37,788 bases of DNA from Parcubacteria group bacterium Athens0714_12 (lineage in GTDB: Bacteria > Patescibacteriota > Patescibacteriia > UBA2591 > VMGY01). The first letter of the stretch is position 1; every line of letters begins with the position of its first letter. The position numbers were made by a program, and so were the translations under genes. The notes under the pieces are model-generated. The model had not been told where the DNA came from, ran no database searches, and was given only the letters and a program-made list of their open reading frames with translations. Location of the stretch: assembly GCA_007378955.1 (NCBI GenBank), contig VMGY01000012.1, forward strand, positions 1-37,788, in the 5' to 3' direction. Below, one piece after another: positions 176 to 37,690 of the stretch.

Positions 176-1306
176 ATGTGTATAATTAAAAAAGTAACCT
201 CAATTTTAAAATACGAAGTTATGAAAGATATTATCGCTAATAAATTGGAGCCATTTATTTTCCTTTATATAACAGAAAGGTGCCAACTTCGATGCCGCCA
301 TTGCTACATGGGAGATCGCCTTTCAAATCCCAAGGAAATGTCATTAGAAAAAATTATTAAAATCCTTAATTATTTCAAAGTTATTGGGCATTATAAATTG
401 TATCTTTTGGGTGGAGAACCCTTATTACATCCACAAATAAAAGAAATTATTACTATAGCAAACAAAATCGGTTACGAAGTTGTTGTGACATCCAATGGAC
501 AGTTTGATAAAAAAATTCTTCAAGATTATACGCCAGAGTTAATTCATAGTTTTTCATTTAGTATTGAATCTTCAAATAAAAAAACTCATGATTATATTCG
601 CGGGAAGGGTACATTTAAACGACTTATTGATAATATTAAGATTGTTCAGTCGCAAGGTTATCAAGCTAGGATAGTATCAACAGTTTCAAATATAAATGTG
701 AATAAACTCACTGATTTAATTGATTATTCTGCTAGAGTATTAAAAGTTAGCATGCTATCCTTTCATTATTTCTCGCCAATTGGTCAAGGAGAAGAATATA
801 TCAACAAATTGATCTTGCCTGAAGACTGGATTAATTTTTGTAAAGAAATAGAGGAATATCCTATACCAGAAAATTTCTGGGTCTATTATCCTCCAACTTT
901 TGTTTATTCTGACGAATTATCATATCTCACTGAGAGAGGATACAAGGGCTGTACAGCTCGTTGGGTTGAGCGTTTGGCCATACTTCCATCAGGACAAATA
1001 TATGCCTGCTCAGTCTTTTTTGATACCAATATGAATTTTGCGCTATGGAGAAATAAAAAAATGGAAATAAGAGATTCCAAGAATACGGAATTAAGAAGTG
1101 TGTATAAGGTAAATGATAATTGCATGGATTGCCCAAATAAAAACCAATGCTTCGGTGGTTGTGGTGCCTATAGGGATCTTAAAAAAAAATTCCCTGGCAT
1201 AATATCTTCTGATAATTGCAAAAGAAAAATTATTCCCCTGTGCCCCCTATGGTCAACTTATGCGGGAAATAATCACCCAATATCCAAAATACAGGAATTA
1301 AGATGA
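176..1306 (+). CDS. Radical SAM/SPASM-domain protein
   Basis: The protein has 376 residues. The radical SAM cluster motif CQLRCRHC (CxxxCxxC) is at residues 36-43, followed by the SAM-binding GGEP motif. A Cys-rich SPASM-type C-terminus follows (GCTARW, YACSVF, CMDCPNKNQCFGGC, DNCKRK, PLCPLW) and would hold auxiliary Fe-S clusters. SPASM enzymes modify peptides, proteins or small molecules by radical chemistry; the substrate here is unknown. It is the first gene of a four-gene operon, and its stop overlaps the gltX-like start (ATGA). No clear Shine-Dalgarno precedes the ATG at 176, and an internal ATG at 221 is an alternative start. No small precursor ORF was noticed nearby. A tetrapyrrole-type SPASM enzyme (AhbD/NirJ-like) is possible, but the other pathway genes are missing. 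Confidence 0.88.
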   Translation: MCIIKKVTSILKYEVMKDIIANKLEPFIFLYITERCQLRCRHCYMGDRLSNPKEMSLEKIIKILNYFKVIGHYKLYLLGGEPLLHPQIKEIITIANKIGYEVVVTSNGQFDKKILQDYTPELIHSFSFSIESSNKKTHDYIRGKGTFKRLIDNIKIVQSQGYQARIVSTVSNINVNKLTDLIDYSARVLKVSMLSFHYFSPIGQGEEYINKLILPEDWINFCKEIEEYPIPENFWVYYPPTFVYSDELSYLTERGYKGCTARWVERLAILPSGQIYACSVFFDTNMNFALWRNKKMEIRDSKNTELRSVYKVNDNCMDCPNKNQCFGGCGAYRDLKKKFPGIISSDNCKRKIIPLCPLWSTYAGNNHPISKIQELR

Positions 1307-3018
1307 CGCTTGAAATAATAAAAAAACATAACTTAAAAAAGCTTAGTTTGCGTAACAACAATATGGAAAATATTACAAATCAATTATTCCCACATAAATT
1401 AGAGAGTGTTATTTCTATGTACAAGAAATATCCAAAAAGAATTTTACCGAAGGGTGCTATGGTTACTCGAATAGCACCTAGCCCCACGGGATTCTTTCAT
1501 ATAGGCGGTCTTTATATGGCTCTTATTTCTGAGCGTTTTGCGCATCAAACTAAGGGGGTTTATTATCTTCGTATTGAGGATACCGATAAGAAAAGGGAAA
1601 TAGAAGGAGCTCGTAAAATTATTAGTATATCGTTGTGTAAATATGGTTTGAGTCCTGATGAAGGAGAAGGCCTAGGTGGTATTGAAAGGGGCATATATGG
1701 CCCATATTGCCAGTCCGATAGGAAAGAAATATACAAAGTGTTTATAAAGCATCTTGTAGAAATTGGCAGAGCATATCCATGTTTTTGCAGTCAAAGCGAA
1801 CTTGATGAAATGCGTAAAATGCAGGAAGAAGCAAAAGTGCGAACAGGATACTATGGCATTTGGGCAAAATGGAGAGATGCCGACAAAAATTTGGTAAAAG
1901 AGATGTTGGATAATAATAAGGAATTTGTAATTAGATTCAAATCTACAGGAGATTATAAAAAAAGTTTTTCATATAAAGATTTACTTAAATGCTCAATAGA
2001 ATTTCCCGAAAATGATATCGATACAGTAATTATGAAATCCGACGGATTGCCCACATATCACTTAGCTCACGTAATTGATGACCATCTAATGAGCACCACG
2101 CATGTGCTGAGGGGTGATGAATGGATATCATCAATACCGCTGCATTATGAATTATTTAATACACTAGAGCTAGAACCACCGCTATATGGACACATTTCTC
2201 CTATTAATAAGATTGATGAATATGGCCATAGGAGAAAATTATCCAAAAGAAAAGATCCAGAAGCAAATGTTATCTATTACGATCAAAAAGGTTACCCCAG
2301 AATTGCCATAATTGAATACCTCATGAATTTGGCCAATTCTGATTTTGAAGATTGGAGAAATAAAAATCCAACAAGTCATTATACGGAATTTACATTAACT
2401 TTTAAAAAATTGGCTGCGAGCGCCGGGCCATTGTTTGATGAAGCCAAACTGAGAGATATTTCCAAGGAATTAATTGCAAAAATGACAGCAACAGAAATTT
2501 ATGAAGATGTAGTTAATTGGTCTTCGGAATATGATTCTAAATTCAAAGATGTTTTACTTTCAGACAAAAAATATTGGGTTAATGCTTTTTCTATAGAGAG
2601 AAGTATAAAAAAAACAAGAAAGGATATTGCTTGTTGGTCTGAGATAAAAAGATTCTTCTACTTTTTAATTAAAGAGGAATTTGCAAAGCCAGACTGGTTA
2701 AAATTCAACAGCCCATTAAGCAAGAATGAGATAAGCGACATATTATTACAATATAGCGCTGAGTTTTCAATAAATGACTTACAAGATGAGTGGATGAACA
2801 AAATTCGACGCATTGCCATTAAATTCAATTTTGCTCCTAATGCTATAACATTCAAAGATAATAAAGATAAATACAGGGGTCATGTTGGTGATATTGCTCA
2901 GATTATTAGATACGCGATTACTGACAGAACGCAAACCCCAGATCTTTATCAAATTATTCAAGTGTTGGGTGAACAAGAGTGTGCAAGAAGAATCTCCTTT
3001 GGGAGAAATTTTGACTAA
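1303..3018 (+). CDS. gltX: Glutamyl-tRNA synthetase (GluRS), probably dedicated copy
   Basis: This class I aminoacyl-tRNA synthetase of 571 residues should charge tRNA-Glu with glutamate. The signature IAPSPTGFFHIGG gives the HIGH motif (HIGG, near residue 66), and YLRIEDTD follows. KLSKRKDPEA (near residue 312) is the KMSKS loop. The C-terminus keeps the family ending 'RTQTPDLYQIIQVLG', so catalytic and anticodon-binding regions look complete. An N-terminal extension of about 50 residues precedes the usual start and makes the protein longer than the usual 470-500 residues. The ATG overlaps the stop of the radical SAM gene, suggesting translational coupling. The glutamyl-tRNA reductase gene lies 40 bp downstream and a tRNA-Glu gene lies at 5873-5944. 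Whether the genome has a second, housekeeping GluRS cannot be seen here. Confidence 0.92.
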   Translation: MTLEIIKKHNLKKLSLRNNNMENITNQLFPHKLESVISMYKKYPKRILPKGAMVTRIAPSPTGFFHIGGLYMALISERFAHQTKGVYYLRIEDTDKKREIEGARKIISISLCKYGLSPDEGEGLGGIERGIYGPYCQSDRKEIYKVFIKHLVEIGRAYPCFCSQSELDEMRKMQEEAKVRTGYYGIWAKWRDADKNLVKEMLDNNKEFVIRFKSTGDYKKSFSYKDLLKCSIEFPENDIDTVIMKSDGLPTYHLAHVIDDHLMSTTHVLRGDEWISSIPLHYELFNTLELEPPLYGHISPINKIDEYGHRRKLSKRKDPEANVIYYDQKGYPRIAIIEYLMNLANSDFEDWRNKNPTSHYTEFTLTFKKLAASAGPLFDEAKLRDISKELIAKMTATEIYEDVVNWSSEYDSKFKDVLLSDKKYWVNAFSIERSIKKTRKDIACWSEIKRFFYFLIKEEFAKPDWLKFNSPLSKNEISDILLQYSAEFSINDLQDEWMNKIRRIAIKFNFAPNAITFKDNKDKYRGHVGDIAQIIRYAITDRTQTPDLYQIIQVLGEQECARRISFGRNFD

Positions 3019-3058
3019 ACACTCTTTATTATCTAGAATAATGTAAAAAATTAATCAT

Positions 3059-3970
3059 ATGGGAAAAATAATCGACTCGAAAGATGCAGAATGCTATTTT
3101 ATTGACTATAAATTTGTTTCAAAGCATAATCTTAGTGGCTTTATAGAAAAAGTGAAGTTGGGTGGCCTTAATTTGGATAGAAATATGTTTGTTATTTCCA
3201 CTTGTCTGCGTTATGAAATTTATAATTTTTCTGGCAAAGAATGGAAATTTGAGAATAAGAATATGTTTGTACATATTTCAGGGAATTTATGCCTAAGAAG
3301 ATTCATTTCGCTTTTATGTGGGCTCCAATCAGAGATTATTGGCGAGAGAGAAATATTTGTTCAAATTCGTTCTGCCGTGTACGAAGCAGCAAAAAACAAC
3401 ATGCTCGATAAGGCTGTGTTTTGGCACATTGTTTCTTTATTTGAAAAAGCTGAAAAAGTAAGAAATACACATTCTATTGACTGTCAAGAAAATTATTCTA
3501 CAGTGGGAGCAAAGGTACTTGACAAAGAAATTACTAGTCCGGCGAATGTAGCAATTATTGGTGGTGGATATATGGCTGAATCATTTTTGAATAATATCAA
3601 CGCAACCAAATTAAAGAAAGTTTATTGGATCAATAGAAGTGTTGAAAAAATTAAAAAAATTGCCAGAAAACAGCATATTATTCCGATAGAGTTATTCGAG
3701 TTTTATAATTTGGAGAATGCAGAACCAGTCATAAATAAGGCTGATTTTGTATTCGCTGCTGCCTATAATTGCGGCGGACGATTTTCAAAGATACATTTGA
3801 ATGATACTAATTGCGTAGTTGATGTTTCCTATCCATCTCTTTTTTCAGATGATATTGGATGCAATTTTTATTCTATTGATAATACTTACTTTGAAAAATT
3901 AATAGAAAGTCCAATTTCAAAAAGTCTAGTGTTTTCTGCTGAAAAAGAAATTGATTCACTGATTCTATAA
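3059..3970 (+). CDS. hemA: Glutamyl-tRNA reductase-like protein, short form
   Basis: The family reduces glutamyl-tRNA(Glu) with NADPH to glutamate-1-semialdehyde. The catalytic cysteine motif is visible as ISTCLRYEIY with Cys at about residue 49. The helical signature follows as CGLQSEIIGEREIFVQIRSA, then a Rossmann NADPH-binding segment 'VAIIGGGYMAESF'. The protein has only 303 residues against about 420 for typical enzymes; it stops after the NADPH domain and lacks the C-terminal dimerisation domain. It sits 40 bp after the GluRS gene and 2 bp before the nucleotidyltransferase-like gene. No hemL, hemB or later tetrapyrrole gene is in the window. The product may therefore feed a different pathway, or the enzyme may act on another tRNA-bound substrate (inference). 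Confidence 0.87.
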   Translation: MGKIIDSKDAECYFIDYKFVSKHNLSGFIEKVKLGGLNLDRNMFVISTCLRYEIYNFSGKEWKFENKNMFVHISGNLCLRRFISLLCGLQSEIIGEREIFVQIRSAVYEAAKNNMLDKAVFWHIVSLFEKAEKVRNTHSIDCQENYSTVGAKVLDKEITSPANVAIIGGGYMAESFLNNINATKLKKVYWINRSVEKIKKIARKQHIIPIELFEFYNLENAEPVINKADFVFAAAYNCGGRFSKIHLNDTNCVVDVSYPSLFSDDIGCNFYSIDNTYFEKLIESPISKSLVFSAEKEIDSLIL

Positions 3971-3972
3971 AA

Positions 3973-4638
3973 ATGAATACAACTTTTGTAAAAAATGAAC
4001 TATTGTCTTTTGTTAATTTGGATAATATTTTGTTTGTAACCACCCAATCCATTGATATAAGTTCAGATATCGATATATATTGTGTCGCCAAAAATAATAT
4101 TAAATCTCAAGTACATATTTATAAGAAAAATGGTTATTGGATTGAAGTTTTTATTGATACTTGGGATGATATGAGGCAAAAAATAAAAAATAATGACGAA
4201 ATTGTTGTTGGCTTTATTTTAAGAATGCAGCTAATTGAATTTTTGAGTAATAGGAACGCGTTTAATGATGCCGTTCAGCTTATAAATGATAAGTACGAAA
4301 TTGTTCAGGAAAGGAAAACAATCTTAATGTATCGCATAAAAGTTTTGTCGTCAAAATATTTATCAGCTACAAACACGCAAACAAGATCATTTTTCAAGGG
4401 TCAGCTAATTCCACTTTTCGCCTTGATAGTATTTGATAAATATGGTGTTTGGCCTGAATCACCTAAGAAATGGATTGAGCAATTAAAACGAATGAAAAAG
4501 ACAGAGTCAAGACAAATCGTACAATGCATTGACTCAGATGAAAATATTGATGAACTTATTAAAATATCTACCAAAAACTTTAAAGGCATCCATATAGAAA
4601 AGGATAGTGAAAACAATAAAATAACATATCTCGGATAA
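3973..4638 (+). CDS. Nucleotidyltransferase-like protein
   Basis: This 221-residue protein is the last gene of the operon, 2 bp after the reductase gene. Residues near 22-40 read 'TTQSIDISSDIDIYCV', which resembles the minimal nucleotidyltransferase pattern in which SDID supplies two metal-binding aspartates. A later 'WIEVFIDTW' could give the third acidic residue. The usual GS before the motif is not canonical, so activity is uncertain. The rest is helical, charged and not recognised. Such folds transfer NMP to proteins, RNA or small molecules. Co-transcription with GluRS and glutamyl-tRNA reductase suggests a role on a glutamate-derived or tRNA-bound intermediate (inference). Confidence 0.6.
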   Translation: MNTTFVKNELLSFVNLDNILFVTTQSIDISSDIDIYCVAKNNIKSQVHIYKKNGYWIEVFIDTWDDMRQKIKNNDEIVVGFILRMQLIEFLSNRNAFNDAVQLINDKYEIVQERKTILMYRIKVLSSKYLSATNTQTRSFFKGQLIPLFALIVFDKYGVWPESPKKWIEQLKRMKKTESRQIVQCIDSDENIDELIKISTKNFKGIHIEKDSENNKITYLG

Positions 4639-4797
4639 ACTATTTTTGAAAGAGCTATCAGTGTGCTTATTTAGGACATTGAATTACGAAATGCAGATCT
4701 AACAACCAAATCTGGACAATTCAAAAACCTCTTTGGATTTCCCAAATTTGGTTGGTAGCGAGCAAATTGTAAAAATTACAAACATTGAAACGAATAA

Positions 4798-5601
4798 TTA
4801 AGCGATTTGATAAGCCAGCAGGCTGTAGATATAGTTAGCCAAATATCCGCCCACTGATCTTGGTAAGCTGGTTACCAGTCCATAAAACATTTTTAAGTTT
4901 CTGAAATTGAGTTCTATTAACATTCTGGTACCGTAAAGAAATTCCTGAAATTTGGTCATTGGATTTTTCATATTCTTTCTCGGTTTAACAAGGAGCATTC
5001 TTTTGCCTTCGCGACAGAAATCTTGCTGGAGTTTTTTAGAGACATATCCAGCGTCAGCAATGAATAATCCCAATAAATCCTTGTTTAGTTTAAGAAAGAT
5101 TTCTCTGTCGTCAGTGTTGCCGGAAGTGAATCTTACAGCCAACATTTTCCTGTTCAAATCAGTTGTAATGTGCATTTTTAAGCCAAAAAATGGACCTTTT
5201 CCTGTATATCCCCAGTTAGCTAATCCCTTCATTGTTTTGTGTCCTTCAGCTTTCCGATTAGAACAGACCGGTATTTCAGTAGAATCAGTATGCTTGATAA
5301 AATGCTGATTGCTTCTGTTGGCTTTCAGAATTGTTACCAGAACCAGCAGAGCCAGATGAGCAAATCTATTTATATTCACCACCAAGGTTTTGTAAGAACA
5401 TTTCGGCTTAAAGATTTTATAGACAGACTTCTTGGTGGCAATGTTGTTAGATTGTTTGAAGATTGCCAGCGAAAGAGTGTCCGTCCTTTTAAGAGCTAAT
5501 TTTCGACCTTTGTTGTTTTCAAACTTATCAAGTCTCAATTGTTTGTAGAAGAATTTTACAATCTGCTTTAAATTGTTGTATAATTGAATTACGGTTTTCA
5601 T
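4798..5601 (-). CDS. IS982-family transposase
   Basis: This 267-residue DDE transposase catalyses movement of the surrounding IS. The catalytic-core hallmarks are 'KHTDSTEIPVCSNRK' (first Asp), the GYTGKGPFFGLKMH stretch typical of the family, 'FIADAGYVSKKLQ' (second Asp) and a late Glu in 'GTRMLIELNFRNLK'. It appears full length and is enclosed by the terminal repeats. Its start codon lies inside one arm of a 19-bp perfect inverted repeat (5599-5617 and 5644-5662), which could hide the start in transcripts entering from outside the element. Confidence 0.9.
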   Translation of the reverse strand: MKTVIQLYNNLKQIVKFFYKQLRLDKFENNKGRKLALKRTDTLSLAIFKQSNNIATKKSVYKIFKPKCSYKTLVVNINRFAHLALLVLVTILKANRSNQHFIKHTDSTEIPVCSNRKAEGHKTMKGLANWGYTGKGPFFGLKMHITTDLNRKMLAVRFTSGNTDDREIFLKLNKDLLGLFIADAGYVSKKLQQDFCREGKRMLLVKPRKNMKNPMTKFQEFLYGTRMLIELNFRNLKMFYGLVTSLPRSVGGYLANYIYSLLAYQIA

Positions 5602-5662
5602 AATGGTGTAAAATTATCTATTGTTGACTAATCCGTCAACATTATAATTTTACACCATTATG
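5599..5662 (-). promoter_or_regulatory. 19-bp stem-loop over the transposase start codon
   Basis: CATAATGGTGTAAAATTAT at 5599-5617 is perfectly complementary to 5644-5662, leaving a loop of 26 nt with an inner TTGAC..GTCAA pair. The transposase ATG is the outermost triplet of the stem. Only RNAs starting upstream of 5662 would fold this way. That is consistent with protection against read-through expression, a strategy known from other IS families. Confidence 0.6.
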
Positions 5663-5762
5663 AAGATTTCGGCTCTTTCGTAATTCAAGGTTTAGGAGTA
5701 ATTTAATATTACAAATTTATTTATAGGATATTAAGTTTCAATAATATTTCTGTAAAAAATTT

Positions 5763-5824
5763 AGGCGCTATTTTAGTTGCAGTTAATTCTTGAATCTAGG
5801 TACTAAAAAAATAGTAAGCGCTTA
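5763..5824. other. Imperfect stem-loop between IS982 and tRNA-Glu
   Basis: GGCGCTATTTTAGT near 5764 can pair, with a few bulges, to ACTAAAAAAATAGTAAGCGC near 5802-5821, leaving a loop of about 25 nt. I do not recognise it. It is the only structure I see between the IS and the tRNA gene. Confidence 0.3.
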
Positions 5825-5872
5825 GCACCGCCCACCAAATCCACTCCGAAAAATCGGAAAGTCTCGAAATCG

Positions 5873-5944
5873 TAGCCCCAAGGGGAATCGAACCCCTGTT
5901 TACAGGATGAAAACCTGCCGTCCTGACCACCAGACGATAAGGCT
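5873..5944 (-). tRNA. tRNA-Glu (anticodon UUC)
   Basis: The 72-nt sequence folds as a full cloverleaf. The anticodon arm is GCAGG-TTTTCAT-CCTGT, giving anticodon TTC, and the T-arm is AGGGG-TTCGATT-CCCCT. The D-stem (GTCT/GGAC) and a 4-nt variable loop match glutamate tRNAs. The discriminator is A73 and CCA is not encoded. The acceptor stem opens with an A1-U72 pair and has two G-U pairs, a weak end for a tRNA-Glu. It lies in the same inverted-repeat-bounded region as the GluRS and glutamyl-tRNA reductase genes, on the opposite strand. Confidence 0.95.
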
Positions 5945-6051: not shown

Positions 6052-6150
6052 TCAGCGCCGTGCGATTTCGCGTACGGCTCTTTCGGAAAAGAGGCCGGGC
6101 TGCCAAAACCGAAAAATTTTCTTTTCATTTTTGATTAAAAGAATTCGGTC
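6052..6150. repeat. Right copy of the perfect 99-bp inverted repeat
   Basis: It is the exact reverse complement of 1-99. The inner ends of the two copies diverge immediately after TCAGCGCCG on this side, so the inner boundary is sharp. The sequence contains two short palindromes and no ORF. Together the copies enclose the GluRS/GluTR/radical SAM operon, the IS and the tRNA-Glu. The intergenic stretch 6151-6335 holds nothing else that I recognise. Confidence 0.85.
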
Positions 6151-6335
6151 TCAGAATCGGGATATTCTTCAAAAAAAGTTCGAATTTCATTCAATAAACA
6201 CAACCATTTAAAATTAAAATCTAGGCATTCGCCCATGGCGAATTAATTATAAAATTATGCCAAATCAAACATTTTTGGTGGTTTTAAAAAATATCTGAAA
6301 TAATTGTTATAGGCATTAGTTATAAGTTGCCCCAT

Positions 6336-6409
6336 GGCAGGGTAGCTCAGTTGGTTAGAGCGAGGGAATCATAACCCCTAGGTCGTGGGTTCGAATCCCA
6401 CCCCTGTCA
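6336..6409 (+). tRNA. tRNA-Met (CAU), elongator type
   Basis: The 74-nt cloverleaf has acceptor GGCAGGG/CCCTGTC, D-arm GCTC..GAGC and T-arm GTGGG-TTCGAAT-CCCAC. The anticodon loop ATCATAA gives anticodon CAT, with one A-C mismatch closing the anticodon stem. The fully paired acceptor end argues against initiator tRNA. A tRNA-Ile that is lysidine-modified at CAU cannot be excluded. CCA is not encoded. A 14-bp inverted repeat (6315-6328 and 6431-6444) flanks the gene and could set transcript ends or processing. Confidence 0.92.
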
Positions 6410-6474
6410 CTAAAATAACTTGCAACTAATAACTTATAACTAATAACCAAAACTTTATCCCCCTCCTCTTTTAT

Positions 6475-13108: not shown

Positions 13109-14467
13109 ATGAAAATTTCAAAATATCTTCAAATAATTCAAGAAAAAAATGGTTCTCTTTGTTTCAATTCATTGATGGGAAATTTATTTTTTCTGGAACC
13201 GTTGTATATGAATACCTTGAAATCATTTCACTCACCTCGCGAACTCACGGAAAAAGAAAAAGAATCTTCCATTGTCTCTGAACTTATTGAAGCGCATTAT
13301 TTAATTAAAAATGACTTAGAAGAAAGAAATATCTTAAAGAAGCGCAATAAAAAATGGATAAAATCAGTTGTTGGCGGACGCCGTGTCTTCCTTTTGAATC
13401 TTATCGTCTCTGAAATTTGCAATATCGCTTGCCCTCATTGTCTGCACAAATGCTCTGTCAACACAAACTTGTCCCATGGAAACAAAAAGCTTATGGACTG
13501 GCCAACAGCCGAAGAATCAATTAATCTTTTTACTAATTTAATGGCAAAATGGAAACGAAAAGATTATACCGTAAGCTTTGGCTCCGCGGAACCATTAATA
13601 AATTGGCGTGTTTTAAAAAAATCAGTGATTTATTTAAAAAAAATAAATCCGGATATTAAAATAACTATAAATACCAATTTATTACTGATAGATAATGAAA
13701 AAGCGAAATTTTTCAAGGAAAATAACGTGTACTTGTCTACATCTTTAGACGGCCCAAAAAAAGGAAATGATCTTATCAGAATTTACGCTAATAAAAAAGG
13801 CACGTATGGCGATATACTGAACAAATTCAAACTATTAGCTAAGATAGGTTATCCTTTAGACGGTTTCAGTATAACTATCAACGACAAAAATTTTAATTAT
13901 GTTGACGCGAATTTTATTAAATGGGCTTCTAATCAGGGATTTAAGGGCATCGCGACAGATATTGATCTCATTAATACCTTAAATTCATCTCGTTCAGTTG
14001 ACGATTACGTTGACAAATTAATGGAATTAAGGAAAGCCTGCCTTGAGAGCGGTATGGAAAATTTTGGAAGCTGGACGACCGCTTACCACAATTTAGTTAA
14101 TGGCTGTGAAGATAATATGCCGACATTTTGCAAAGCCGCAAAAGGAAATAATGTTTCAATTAACCCCGAAGGCAATATCTTTATTTGCGGCCACACCAAT
14201 ACTCTTTTAGGAAATATCAAGTATTTTGAAAAAACTTTTTATCCTAAAAGTCCTTACTGCGATCTCATTGAGAAAAGATTACCGGGAAATAATCAAAATT
14301 GTTTTAGCTGTTATATTGAAGGAATATGCGCCGGCCAATGCCAAATAACAAGAGAAGCGGCCAAAAGGACAAAAAATAAGCGCGATTTATTTTTATGCAA
14401 TTTTTATCGGGCCGCAACTTTCAAACTTTTCAAAGAAAAATTACGGGCCGAATTAATAAATAATTAA
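13109..14467 (+). CDS. Radical SAM/SPASM peptide maturase
   Basis: The protein has 452 residues. The first 85 or so form a small domain typical of peptide-modifying SPASM enzymes and may bind the leader peptide. The cluster motif 'CNIACPHC' is at residues 104-111. The SPASM region carries 'CKAAKGNNVSINPEGNIFIC', 'CFSCYIEGICAGQC' and a final 'LFLCNFY'. The usual GGEP is replaced by 'FGSAEPLIN'. GGGGGTG supports the start at 13109. A 20-codon peptide gene follows after 11 bp and is the probable substrate. A divergent small gene and a convergent MFS transporter flank the locus. Confidence 0.9.
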   Translation: MKISKYLQIIQEKNGSLCFNSLMGNLFFLEPLYMNTLKSFHSPRELTEKEKESSIVSELIEAHYLIKNDLEERNILKKRNKKWIKSVVGGRRVFLLNLIVSEICNIACPHCLHKCSVNTNLSHGNKKLMDWPTAEESINLFTNLMAKWKRKDYTVSFGSAEPLINWRVLKKSVIYLKKINPDIKITINTNLLLIDNEKAKFFKENNVYLSTSLDGPKKGNDLIRIYANKKGTYGDILNKFKLLAKIGYPLDGFSITINDKNFNYVDANFIKWASNQGFKGIATDIDLINTLNSSRSVDDYVDKLMELRKACLESGMENFGSWTTAYHNLVNGCEDNMPTFCKAAKGNNVSINPEGNIFICGHTNTLLGNIKYFEKTFYPKSPYCDLIEKRLPGNNQNCFSCYIEGICAGQCQITREAAKRTKNKRDLFLCNFYRAATFKLFKEKLRAELINN

Positions 14468-27094: not shown

Positions 27095-28170
27095 ATGGGT
27101 ATTCATTTATTAGTCAATCCAATAAAATGGGTGAAAAAAAATTTTGGCAAAAAAAGAACAGATTTTTTGATTAATCTAATCAGTGGTGGTGAAAATTTTT
27201 ATTATTTGGACAAAATTTACGATTCTCAGCAAAAAAGGCTTGTTAAACGATTAACGTTATTATTACCCGGTAAAGGGTGCAGTTGGGCAAAAATATCAGG
27301 TGGCTGTTCAATGTGCGGCTTTCCAAGCAAAGTAAAAGAGATAGGAAAAAAATTTTCTGCCGATGATTTAATAGGTCTTTACAAAATAGCGGAATTAATG
27401 ACTATTGAAGAAAGGCCTGAGAATTTAACCATTTACAACGCGGGCAGTTTTCTAAATGATGAAGAAATTTCGCCAAAGGCCCAAATAGAAATAACTAATT
27501 TAGTCAAAAAACATCCTTCTATTAAATTATTATTTATAGAATCTCGCGCGGAATTTGTTACTAGCCAAAAAATAAAAAAATTAACTTCTCTTTTGGAAAA
27601 TAAAAAATTGGAAGTAGGTATTGGTTTAGAAGCAGTTAATGAAAAAGTAAGAAATAAATTTATTAATAAAGGATTATCTTTAAAAACATACGAGGAAGCG
27701 ATAAAAACTCTTAAAAAAAACAAAGCTTTATCTTCAACTTATGTTTTCATTAAACCGTTATATCTAAATGAATGGGAAGCAATAGAAGAAGCAATAATAA
27801 CCGCTGAATATGCCCATAAAACAGGGTCGGATAAAATTAATTTTGAAGCGGCTTTTGTGCAAAAAGGCACATTATTAGCCGCGTTTTATGAAAAAGGAGA
27901 ATTCCGTCCGCCGTGGCTTTGGAGCATTCGTGGCTTTGGAGCATTATTGAAGTATTAAAAAGAACTCATCATCTCAATAATATTCAAATCGGCAATTTCA
28001 ACGATGAACCCCCGCCTATCGCTATCCCCCACAACTGCCCGAAATGTTCGTCTCAAATTGAAAAAATTATCCGGCAATACAGAGAAACGAATAATATCCA
28101 TCTTTTTGACGAGCTTGATTGCGAATGCAAGGAGGAATGGAAAAAAATTATTGCTAAATATATTGACTAA
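27095..28170 (+). pseudogene. RaSEA/TIGR01210-like radical SAM gene, frameshifted
   Basis: The cluster motif is CSWAKISGGCSMC (Cx8CxxC, residues 62-74), the Elp3-like spacing of the archaeosine-synthase radical SAM family. 'NLTIYNAGSFLNDEEI' and 'FIESRAEF' are further family marks. The frame is broken by a 17-bp tandem duplication (27912-27945). As it stands, translation stops at 27958 after 287 residues. Removing one copy restores 352 residues with a C-terminal Cys-rich part (NCPKCSS, DCECKEEW). A truncated second copy at 31842-32035 lacks the duplication. It is unknown whether the bacterial protein acts on tRNA. Confidence 0.82.
27912..27945 (+). repeat. 17-bp tandem duplication
   Basis: CGTGGCTTTGGAGCATT occurs twice in a row (27912-27928 and 27929-27945). 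It shifts the reading frame of the radical SAM gene. The remaining gap 28171-28351 is AT-rich and shows no feature I can name. Confidence 0.95.
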
Positions 28171-32875: not shown

Positions 32876-33034
32876 TTATTTGCTATCATCACAAGTACTC
32901 CTATCACAATAACATGATTCGCCATAACACTCGCAAGGATCGCCGGGATTATAACACTCATCACATCCACCATTAAGCACTTTTTGATGATTTCCGGTAC
33001 TTTTTTCGATTACGGAAAGAATTTCTGGGTTCAT
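32876..33034 (-). CDS. Cys-rich RiPP precursor peptide, 52 residues
   Basis: The peptide was found by reading the gap after the radical SAM gene. GGAGGAGG lies 3-4 bases before the ATG. The first 20 residues (MNPEILSVIEKSTGNHQKVL) look like a leader. The core then holds seven Cys, mostly as CxxC or CxC pairs: GGCDECYNPGDPCECYGESC, then YC and DRSTCDDSK. A terminator follows directly. It starts 14 bp after the stop of a radical SAM/SPASM enzyme that carries a peptide-recognition domain. The CxC pairs and acidic tail resemble the precursor at 28987-29190. Confidence 0.8.
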   Translation of the reverse strand: MNPEILSVIEKSTGNHQKVLNGGCDECYNPGDPCECYGESCYCDRSTCDDSK

Positions 33035-33048
33035 ATCCTCCTCCTTTT

Positions 33049-34365
33049 TTATATTTTGATTCGACTTATAACTTTTCTTTTAACTATAGATGCAATAAAT
33101 TTTGACAATTTTTCAGTATCAATATCTACTCTTTTTAATAAATCATCCATTGTAAAATCTTTCAATAGATTAATTGTCTGTAATATTTTGTAGCCATCGT
33201 GATTGACTAAAATTGCTCCTGAAAGAGTAGCCGACACAATAGCGCCAAAATCTTCTTCGCGAAATCTTAAATTATCTTGTAATACATACTTATCTCCGGG
33301 GTTTAAATTATCAATAGAATGATTGATGGGTGAAGTTGAATCAATAATTATCTCGTTTTGACTTGTCATATACGGATCTTTGCCGCAAATATCACCTAAA
33401 TATTTAGCCTCCATTCTGCATCCTCCACTACAAAAATCAATAAACTTGCATCTCTTACATTCAATTGGTATATACTTACCATCTCTCCAATCTGACATTT
33501 TTTCCCAAATATCAATTAAATCTTCTTTAAAAATATTTCCGTAAATCATATCGGAATGAGAGCATGGCCTTATTTCTCCCGCTGAGCTGATCGTACAGGT
33601 TGTAATGCCTGCTGTACAACTTCTACGCGCAAAATGAAAAAATCTATGCAAATCTCCTATTAAACAAAGGGGGTAACATTCTAGAATATCAACACTTAAA
33701 TTCAATTCTTTTTTAATTTTTTCAAGTAAATTTAAACTTTCTTTCACTTGACTCCTTGTCGGACGTAAATCGTTAAAATTACGATTATTTAATGCTGGAG
33801 ACGCTTTAGTTACCGAGAATAATTGCACACCTATGCTCTTTAAAAATTTTGCGGTTTCATATATGCAATCAAAATTTTGTTTTAGCAAAACCATATTGGC
33901 GCTAACCCTTATTCCTTCTGAAACAGCTACTTTTATACCTTTAATTGTTTGCTGCCACGAACCCTGATGATTGGAAATCTTGTCATGAATTTTTTCACTA
34001 GTTGACAAAACTGAAACTAAAACCGATTTTAACCCACTATTTCTTAATGATCTTGCTTTTTCTTTTTCTAATAAAATAAGATTAGAATTTAAGCTTACTT
34101 GTATCCCACTTAAAGATAATTTACTAATAGCAGAAAGCAAATCTTCCCAAAAAATTAATGGCTCGCCGCCTGTTAGGGTCACCGAAAATATCTTATTATC
34201 TATAAGCTTATTGACAATAAAAAGTAAGTCTTTTTCTGTAAGTGATTTAAAATCTTTCTTTGTGTTTTCACGCCAATGGTTATAGCAATATGTACAATTA
34301 TTATTGCAAAGTTCTGTTATTTCAATCTGTGTAGAAATTGGTGCTCTTAATTTTCTGTATTTCAT
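33049..34365 (-). CDS. Radical SAM/SPASM maturase with C-terminal PqqD-like domain
   Basis: The protein has 438 residues. The cluster motif CNNNCTYC lies at residues 20-27, and TLTGGEP follows. SPASM cysteines are in 'CTAGITTCTISSAGEIRPC' and 'ECKRCKFIDFCSGGC'. The last 75 residues ('DNLRFREEDFGAIVSATLSG' to 'SKFIASIVKRKVI') look like a PqqD-type winged helix, the leader-recognition element (RRE) of RiPP enzymes, here fused at the C-terminus. AAAGGAGG precedes the ATG, and the Cys-rich precursor follows after 14 bp. The promoter and leader motif are at 34420-34487. This is the most complete RiPP enzyme in the window. Confidence 0.9.
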   Translation of the reverse strand: MKYRKLRAPISTQIEITELCNNNCTYCYNHWRENTKKDFKSLTEKDLLFIVNKLIDNKIFSVTLTGGEPLIFWEDLLSAISKLSLSGIQVSLNSNLILLEKEKARSLRNSGLKSVLVSVLSTSEKIHDKISNHQGSWQQTIKGIKVAVSEGIRVSANMVLLKQNFDCIYETAKFLKSIGVQLFSVTKASPALNNRNFNDLRPTRSQVKESLNLLEKIKKELNLSVDILECYPLCLIGDLHRFFHFARRSCTAGITTCTISSAGEIRPCSHSDMIYGNIFKEDLIDIWEKMSDWRDGKYIPIECKRCKFIDFCSGGCRMEAKYLGDICGKDPYMTSQNEIIIDSTSPINHSIDNLNPGDKYVLQDNLRFREEDFGAIVSATLSGAILVNHDGYKILQTINLLKDFTMDDLLKRVDIDTEKLSKFIASIVKRKVISRIKI

Positions 34366-36474: not shown

Positions 36475-36609
36475 TTAATCGTCATCACAAGGGCATACTC
36501 CCCAAGTGACACAATCCCTCGCCTGATCACTGCCATTTTCTATTTTAATAGAATCGGGCAGAATCAGGGCGAAATCAAGAAAAAACGGCCTTTCAAGATT
36601 TTTTTCCAT
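36475..36609 (-). CDS. Graspetide-like precursor peptide, 44 residues
   Basis: The peptide was found by reading the gap after the ATP-grasp gene. The start at 36609 follows AAAGGAGGGAAAG. The leader is MEKNLERPFFLDFALILPDS; RPFFLDF resembles the PFFARFL leader helix that microviridin ATP-grasp enzymes recognise. The core region is 'DQARDCVTWGVCPCDDD', with one Thr and several Asp suitable for ester or amide macrocycles and three Cys that are unusual for graspetides. There is no TxKxPSD core. The start overlaps the ATP-grasp 3' end by 17 bp and a terminator follows. Confidence 0.8.
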   Translation of the reverse strand: MEKNLERPFFLDFALILPDSIKIENGSDQARDCVTWGVCPCDDD

Positions 36610-37627
36610 TACCTTTCCCTCCTTTTTTTGATAATTTTATTAAAACTTCCGCAAATGCTTTGGAAATAGGTAAATTTGTCATGTGTTCTAACCAGCCCCA
36701 TTGTCCATTAGGATTATCTTCCAAAAAAACTATTTTATCATCTGGCGTCATAATCAAATCAATAACACCAAAAGTTAATCTAAAGCTTTTTGTAAAAGAT
36801 ATTAATTTTTTATTAATTGTTTTTCCTAAATCAATTGGTTTATGCGGCATTTCTTTTAATTTACCCATAACTGCGGCTTTTCTATAATCCACCACTCCTT
36901 CTGCAATATTTTGGGAATAAATAGCAACAGAAAACACCTGGTTGTCGACCACTACGGAACGAATATCAAATTTCTTTGGAATATGTTGCTGTAGAAACAT
37001 CGGGCAAAAACGCATTCTCTTTAGATGAATATCGTCCATCGCGTCTTTTGGTATTTTAGTTGTATGAACTAAATATCTTTTGCCATCCTTAAATTGAAAC
37101 AATCCTTTCCTAATCTTTTTAAAAATTACTTCTCGATCAGCCTCCTCCCAAAATTTTTTTATCGCTTCTAAATTATCGGTGATGCAAGTTAAAGGTATCT
37201 CCAAGTCAAAAGAAGCAGCTCTTTCCATTTGTATCATTTTATTAAACTTTAAACGCTCGTTAATTTCCCAGGGATTGGCTACAGGGCACCGCAACATAGT
37301 AAAAGAAATATTCATTGCCCATTCTGATTCGTCAATCATCCAATTTTTTAAATCTGGTTCGTGATCTAATTCGAAACCAATATTAGGTTTATGAATCCGC
37401 CTATTCCAAACTACACCGATTTCTTCAAATTCAAGATCGCGATCAGGAAATTGATATTTTCCAAAAAAATTTCCTTTCTTGTCTAAACGCATAATTACTT
37501 TTATCTTTGAGTGAAATTCATCTGTGTTAAATCTAATAAAATCCAATCTTCTTTTTACCAAATGTTCTATAACAAGCTGCGCGCAATCATCCTGAGAATG
37601 TGTAAGTATTAATATCTTTTTATTCAT
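36593..37627 (-). CDS. MvdD-like ATP-grasp peptide ligase (graspetide synthetase)
   Basis: The start is placed at 37627 after AGGAGG (344 residues); a longer frame lacks support. 'MNKKILILTHSQDDCAQLVI' and 'IGVVWNRRIHKP' are N-terminal marks of MvdC/MvdD-type enzymes. The ATP-grasp core shows 'REVIFKKIRKG', 'FLQQHIPKKFDIRSVVV' and 'GVIDLIMTPDDKIVFLEDNP' with NGQW, giving the metal-binding D and ExN residues. These enzymes use ATP to form ester or amide side-chain links in precursor peptides. The PFF-containing precursor overlaps its 3' end. Only one ligase is present, so a single bond type is expected. The upstream leader carries the shared motif at 37666-37690. Confidence 0.9.
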   Translation of the reverse strand: MNKKILILTHSQDDCAQLVIEHLVKRRLDFIRFNTDEFHSKIKVIMRLDKKGNFFGKYQFPDRDLEFEEIGVVWNRRIHKPNIGFELDHEPDLKNWMIDESEWAMNISFTMLRCPVANPWEINERLKFNKMIQMERAASFDLEIPLTCITDNLEAIKKFWEEADREVIFKKIRKGLFQFKDGKRYLVHTTKIPKDAMDDIHLKRMRFCPMFLQQHIPKKFDIRSVVVDNQVFSVAIYSQNIAEGVVDYRKAAVMGKLKEMPHKPIDLGKTINKKLISFTKSFRLTFGVIDLIMTPDDKIVFLEDNPNGQWGWLEHMTNLPISKAFAEVLIKLSKKGGKGNGKKS

Positions 37628-37665
37628 TACTGTTGCCTCCTCTATTTTATTGATTTTTATTTTCA

Positions 37666-37690
37666 AATTTTCAACGAACTTTCACCCTCC
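37666..37690 (-). promoter_or_regulatory. boxA-like leader motif of the graspetide locus
   Basis: On the minus strand GGAGGGTGAAAG runs into GAAAGTTCGTTGAAAATT. It matches 30315-30339 over 25 bases with one difference. It is 40 bp before the start at 37627. No strong -35/-10 pair was seen for this strand. Confidence 0.7.

Follow-up and report, generated by a model that had tools for sequence, protein, structure and literature searches.

Glutamyl-tRNA reductase (GluTR) is the textbook gateway to heme and chlorophyll. In the canonical enzyme, HemA, attack of a catalytic Cys on the aminoacyl ester gives a thioester, from which reduction by NADPH releases glutamate-1-semialdehyde, and the roles of this Cys, of the NADPH domain and of the dimerisation domain have been described (PMC6399207). 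Other enzymes withdraw aminoacyl-tRNA from translation in order to build a small molecule, in some cases with the help of a cluster-borne synthetase; those covered by a 2026 review comprise GNAT-fold transferases, cyclodipeptide synthases, LanB/PEARL enzymes and the synthetase-like AcmF and SbzA, with no reductase among them (PMC12945691). The locus analysed here differs in carrying a reductase-like protein (our comparison with the literature covered open-licence papers). It occupies the first 6 kb of a 37,788-nt stretch of DNA from Parcubacteria group bacterium Athens0714_12, hereafter the window, which is the entire contig C22 of an 827-kb genome (27 contigs; completeness rating 100%). An operon of four closely packed genes (176-4638) is followed there by the transposase gene of an IS982 element and then by a tRNA-Glu(UUC). 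The interpretation towards which we lean, with somewhat more confidence than doubt, is that of a compact, horizontally acquired biosynthetic cassette that would draw glutamate off tRNA for a product other than a tetrapyrrole. The locus comprises the following features:

176-1306, + strand: SPASM-type radical S-adenosylmethionine (radical SAM, rSAM) enzyme, 376 residues (PF04055 Radical_SAM, 1.3e-23)
1303-3018, + strand: second glutamyl-tRNA synthetase (GluRS) (PF00749 tRNA-synt_1c, 5.4e-66)
3059-3970, + strand: short GluTR-like reductase, 303 residues (PF05201 GlutR_N, 4.7e-12; PF01488 Shikimate_DH, 1.7e-9)
3973-4638, + strand: probable ANT/KNTase-like nucleotidyltransferase, 221 residues, a weak assignment (SDIDIY motif; weak fold match)
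4677-5690, - strand: IS982-family insertion sequence, with its transposase at 4798-5601 (NF033520, 3.4e-37, slightly below its cut-off)
5872-5944, - strand: second tRNA-Glu(UUC) (ARAGORN and Rfam, 57.8 bits)
1-99, + strand: left arm of an exact 99-nt inverted repeat, coinciding with the contig end (from the sequence)
6052-6150, - strand: right arm of the same repeat (from the sequence)

The radical SAM and GluRS genes overlap by 4 bp, and the G+C content of the block is 33.2%, against 32.6% for the remaining contig. A preliminary description of this DNA had proposed a tight four-gene operon with a tRNA-Glu(UUC) nearby; all four frames are indeed open, family scans identify three of their products, and both ARAGORN and Rfam recover the tRNA. 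Its recognition of a SPASM radical SAM enzyme and of a short glutamyl-tRNA reductase also agrees with the family matches listed above and with the motifs that follow.

The reductase resembles HemA in having an N-terminal domain with the TCxRxExY motif (T48, C49, R51, E53 and Y55, invariant among its relatives) and a Rossmann NADPH domain, whose GGGYMA nucleotide loop aligns through its GGG with the canonical HemA rows, and in being paired with a GluRS and a tRNA-Glu. It differs from HemA, which has about 400-460 residues, in its shorter length and in lacking the C-terminal dimerisation domain, the family matches stopping by about residue 275. The HemA profile TIGR01035 scores it at 58.1 bits against a cut-off of 209.55. 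GluTR ranks first in a PDB sequence search (1gpj, 8.9e-6), and the top Foldseek matches are all GluTR (5.6e-7), from a low-confidence AlphaFold2 (AF2) model with a predicted local distance difference test score (pLDDT) of 45 that was used for the Foldseek ranking alone. When ten canonical HemA proteins were aligned with twelve accessory proteins (that of the window, four from actinobacteria and seven from rhizobia), all twelve of the latter were found to keep the Cys, the Arg and the nucleotide loop, and to share three departures from HemA: the loss of the Asn that follows the catalytic Cys, a His-to-Arg replacement in the active site, and an N/D-Y motif in place of a conserved Ser region. At the active-site position (Arg81 in the window reductase, His99 of E. 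coli as aligned), Arg occurs in every accessory protein, His in nine of the ten canonical proteins and Tyr in the other one. In a maximum-likelihood tree, the twelve are set apart from the other proteins by a branch with supports of 90/95, present in 92% of bootstraps and subject to a long-branch warning. As judged from these sequences, the reductase belongs to a distinct GluTR-like family that includes rhizobial Nfe2. It is the only GluTR-like match of its own genome, and GlutR_N yields three matches across 380 genomes of the phylum (own genome, G418 and G045), the last of which was discarded as a non-open remnant or chance match. Matches in 'phages' were likewise set aside as ordinary HemA genes, apparently bacterial DNA within those records.

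The radical SAM enzyme ties the window to a set of actinobacterial gene clusters. Its CxxxCxxC motif (C36, C40 and C43) and its C-terminal Cys set (C259, C278, C316, C319, C325, C329, C348 and C356) are invariant in an alignment with actinobacterial relatives, and it is 36-42% identical to the rSAM1 and rSAM2 proteins of those clusters (E values to 3e-100), in whose subfamily we place it; its Nocardia orthologue exceeds the cut-off of TIGR04085. The corresponding profile scores 607 bits in the own genome and at most 119 bits for the next best match among the 380 genomes, and scans of viral contigs with this enzyme and with the cassette GluRS returned no match. No NCBIfam equivalog cut-off is neared by the window enzyme (best 90 bits against 500). 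It shares a radical SAM domain and a Cys-rich C-terminal domain with the SPASM maturases NirJ2, ScmF, AhbD and the mycofactocin enzyme MftC; a gene for a precursor peptide was not recognised next to it. A radical SAM enzyme of N. farcinica (L015:8602-10011; 34% identity) and some 17 relatives in its family (about 270-327 bits) were rejected as a paralogous subfamily; the N. farcinica gene lies among P-loop kinase, PfkB-like, NUDIX and cupin-like genes, with neither a GluTR-like gene nor gltX.

A tblastn search with the GluTR-like protein led to a plasmid of Nocardia, where a 'hypothetical protein' is encoded beside genes for a flavin adenine dinucleotide (FAD) enzyme, a nucleotidyltransferase, a pair of radical SAM enzymes and gltX. 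The order GluTR-like/FAD enzyme/nucleotidyltransferase/rSAM1/rSAM2/gltX is found in Nocardia NBC_00511 and NBC_01388, Kitasatospora NBC_01300 and Streptomyces TSRI0281, the clusters of NBC_01388 and NBC_01300 being plasmid-borne. N. harenae and N. panacis have the same cluster without the GluTR-like gene; in S. tateyamensis the cluster extends over more than one contig and the whole genome lacks the GluTR-like gene, and in N. arizonensis the cluster is cut off at a contig end. A match in N. africana (L023) covered 40 residues only, with no cluster, and was dropped. Genomes with homologous clusters already have a full-length HemA. The gltX genes of the actinobacterial clusters form one clade (support of 100 in the Shimodaira-Hasegawa approximate likelihood-ratio test, SH-aLRT) with 68-81% mutual identity, and since they are only 40-48% identical to their hosts' own gltX, they belong to the cluster and travel with it. 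Of the 401 genomes in the family of N. harenae, only one has the radical SAM enzyme at full strength, and the cluster, sporadic and often plasmid-borne though also present on chromosomes, is likely mobile. The same kinds of genes as in the window are thus found together in actinobacteria, with an FAD enzyme and a second rSAM added and with the GluTR-like gene sometimes absent. Because the same rSAM subfamily, at 41-42% identity to the window enzyme, recurs with GluTR-like, nucleotidyltransferase and gltX genes in Nocardia, Kitasatospora and Streptomyces, the gene set is not a chance grouping.

The cassette GluRS has intact HIGH-type (HIGG) and KLSKR motifs, scores 285.1 bits with TIGR00464, slightly below the cut-off of 289.95, and matches GluRS structures in PDB with E values to 4e-57. 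The housekeeping gltX lies elsewhere in the genome (C2:5941-7413) and its product is 33% identical to the cassette enzyme, which the preliminary description had called extra-long. That attribute, which is based on the first ATG, is not clear, as the length depends on which start is used: alternatives exist at 1363 and 1459, and the ATG at 1459, immediately before the catalytic core, gives 519 residues. The tRNA-Glu genes of translation are also found elsewhere, tRNA-Glu(UUC) on C8 and tRNA-Glu(CUC) on C7. Glu identity in E. coli is linked to U11-A24, U13-G22 and the absence of base 47, all of which the window tRNA-Glu retains. Its position 14 is G, where 43 of the 46 tRNAs of the genome have A, the remaining two exceptions being Ser tRNAs that the position count does not fit; G14 is consistent with either release from translation or decay. 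The lack of an encoded CCA was rejected as a mark of a foreign tRNA, since about 10 other tRNAs of the genome also lack it. Finally, searches of the own genome for class-III aminotransferases (PF00202) and for HemB (PF00490) returned no match, with control genomes positive for both; with no PF00202 match, the genome therefore has no HemL.

The fourth gene is the least well characterised member of the operon. Its product matches no Pfam or NCBIfam family, has an SDIDIY stretch (D-x-D) with no G-S, and aligns with the actinobacterial nucleotidyltransferase in a profile comparison over an S-D-x-D stretch only, which is not significant. The top six Foldseek matches are all ANT(4') aminoglycoside nucleotidyltransferase (E values of 0.015-0.07, on an AF2 model with a pLDDT of 52.7), and tblastn against plasmids gave chance matches only. 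The nucleotidyltransferase of the preliminary description is a probable but weak assignment, based on this weak fold match.

From these sequence-established features (genes whose association is conserved and whose catalytic motifs are intact, an additional gltX and tRNA-Glu, and the lack of HemL and HemB) we infer the reactions and the product as follows. The cassette GluRS would charge tRNA-Glu, probably the adjacent extra copy. The GluTR-like enzyme would then attack Glu-tRNA through Cys49, and reduction of the thioester by NAD(P)H would yield glutamate-1-semialdehyde. Because the genome has neither HemL nor HemB, this aldehyde must go elsewhere, with the radical SAM enzyme and the probable nucleotidyltransferase as candidates to act on it: the SPASM enzyme may use radical chemistry to remodel glutamate-1-semialdehyde or a compound derived from it, and the last protein may attach a nucleotidyl group, be it as a step of biosynthesis or for protection. 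The dedicated tRNA-Glu system suggested in the preliminary description is supported by the second gltX, the other tRNA-Glu genes, the missing HemL and HemB and the actinobacterial sets, and neither of the observations that the description had named as able to refute it was made; its activity on Glu-tRNA, its product and its nucleotidyltransferase are putative.

Relatives of the reductase are also found outside such clusters. Nfe2, the nodule formation efficiency protein of S. meliloti GR4 (plasmid pRmeGR4b, L016:8878-9813), is GluTR-like, keeps TCxRxExY and is encoded next to an ornithine-cyclodeaminase-family gene. Further rhizobial relatives (L007, L017 and L068-L071) lie on symbiosis plasmids beside ornithine-cyclodeaminase-family or ATP-grasp ligase genes, one of them near nifHD, and in the records examined the family is annotated as 'Nfe2' or 'hypothetical protein' only. 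Nfe2 and its relatives are short and have the same three diagnostic changes as the window reductase; they differ from it in that neither an rSAM nor a GluRS is among the annotated neighbours examined. In the small genome G418, one protein (L009:9674-11674) joins a GluTR-like domain to an AspRS-type class II catalytic core that lacks an anticodon-binding domain, and its gene lies next to genes for an AspRS, a second AspRS-like core, a short-chain dehydrogenase/reductase and an amidohydrolase. Since it retains the active-site His and has lost the Arg of TCxR, we regard this fusion as a separate offshoot, whose GluTR-like domain may use another amino acid. The fusion shows a synthetase and a reductase coupled within one protein.

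Several observations weigh against the proposed cassette. The GluTR-like proteins share only 16-19% identity across groups, their active-site His and Asn are changed, and their tree has long branches; the extra tRNA-Glu, with its G14, is possibly decaying, and the nucleotidyltransferase call is weak. The window and the actinobacterial clusters have in common an rSAM of one subfamily, a GluTR-like protein of one family and a gltX of their own. The window operon differs in having a single rSAM, no FAD enzyme, a much weaker nucleotidyltransferase and a GluRS of another lineage, which falls outside the actinobacterial cluster gltX clade (25-30% identity) and is not orthologous to it, and in having its own tRNA-Glu, a gene that was not found near the actinobacterial loci. 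Moreover, three actinobacteria (N. harenae, N. panacis and S. tateyamensis) possess gltX and rSAM genes of the cluster type but no GluTR-like gene; these three could use the HemA of the host, or their GluRS may serve resistance.

Resistance could in fact explain the synthetase of the window as well, if the cassette GluRS were a self-resistance copy against a GluRS inhibitor made or modified by the radical SAM enzyme and the nucleotidyltransferase, with the GluTR-like protein as an optional tailoring enzyme. The persistence of gltX and rSAM where the GluTR-like gene is missing and the divergence of cluster gltX from the host copy fit this explanation, as does the protection of producers by synthetase duplicates in the acm and sbz clusters (PMC12945691). 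We consider it rather unlikely, for it leaves unexplained both the recurrence of the GluTR-like gene in four actinobacterial clusters and the window and the presence of a second tRNA-Glu beside the operon. Supply and self-resistance need not exclude each other, however, because the cluster synthetase AcmD can both supply aminoacyl-tRNA to the product and give self-resistance (PMC12945691).

Were the GluTR-like protein instead a Cys-dependent aminoacyl transferase, glutamate would pass from tRNA to Cys49 and from there to an acceptor modified by the radical SAM enzyme. This would suit the combination of a conserved Cys49 with a replaced Asn and His in all twelve accessory proteins, and the proximity of rhizobial members to ATP-grasp ligase or ornithine-cyclodeaminase-family genes, but every member retains the Rossmann domain and the GxG nucleotide loop, and we find this explanation distinctly improbable. 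Bacteria with small genomes often depend on partners, and GluRS, tRNA-Glu and GluTR are the starters of the C5 tetrapyrrole route, so that an incomplete version of it might make glutamate semialdehyde or 5-aminolevulinic acid (ALA) for a partner organism or for salvage; the lack of HemL-type and HemB genes, a reductase that departs from HemA at diagnostic positions (58 against the cut-off of 209.6) and the presence of a full-length HemA beforehand in the genomes with homologous clusters make this very improbable. Decaying mobile-element cargo without a working pathway, to which the adjacent IS982, the contig-edge repeat and the G14 tRNA might point, is just as hard to credit for four open, tightly packed frames with intact catalytic motifs and an insertion sequence that lies outside the genes.

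More generally, we judge evenly balanced the broader proposition that the short HemA-related aminoacyl-tRNA reductases of the window, of the actinobacterial clusters and of rhizobial symbiosis plasmids (Nfe2) constitute a new biosynthetic class making non-tetrapyrrole amino aldehydes, here with a GluRS and a tRNA-Glu of their own specialised away from translation. With such a distinct second GluTR family, the enzymes that channel aminoacyl-tRNA into small molecules would gain a reductive class, genome mining would gain a new handle and the rhizobial nodulation-efficiency protein Nfe2 would acquire a testable biochemical role; secondary metabolism would also be suggested for a genome of only 0.83 Mb.

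A 7-bp target duplication, TTTAGGA, is present on both sides of IS982 (4670-4676 and 5691-5697), so the element must have entered the space that separates the operon from the tRNA. IS982 is thus a later insertion, outside the pathway; the distance of 1.2 kb to the tRNA-Glu noted in the preliminary description is correct and due only to this element, the gap without it being about 0.22 kb. The inverted-repeat-bounded block of the same description may owe its outline to the edge of the assembly, for the left arm of the repeat coincides with bases 1-99 of the contig. The repeat has no further copy anywhere in the genome, and other contigs of the assembly share termini of 98-99 nt (C11 start with C8 end, C13 start with C16 end), so that 99 nt looks like the assembler k-mer or overlap length; a transposon bounded by the repeat finds no support on this account. 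A genuine repeat of 99 nt or more is possible, with a length and a left flank that this contig cannot show. Immediately beyond the right arm, a 93-nt stretch (6151-6243) is identical to the end of contig C2 in reverse orientation, and a near-identical tRNA-Met(CAT) is present at both sites (6336-6410 in the window), the C2 copy having an acceptor stem that pairs poorly; this is a possible site of integration or rearrangement, or an effect of assembly.

Elsewhere in the window, other genes for peptide modification and radical chemistry were noted. On the - strand, a SPASM radical SAM gene (33049-34365) with a Cys-rich frame of 52 residues directly downstream (32876-33034) is a possible pair for a ribosomally synthesised, modified peptide (RiPP), and a homologue of the MvdC/MvdD-type ATP-grasp peptide ligases (36593-37666), followed by a frame of 44 residues (36475-36609), is a possible graspetide system. 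On the + strand, a radical SAM protein encoded at 13109-14467 has its nearest counterparts among the PapB-type ranthipeptide maturases (105.7 bits against a cut-off of 340), and another, at 27095-27958, resembles the archaeosine-synthesis enzyme RaSEA (TIGR01210, 188 bits; cut-off 212), which is unexpected for a bacterium.

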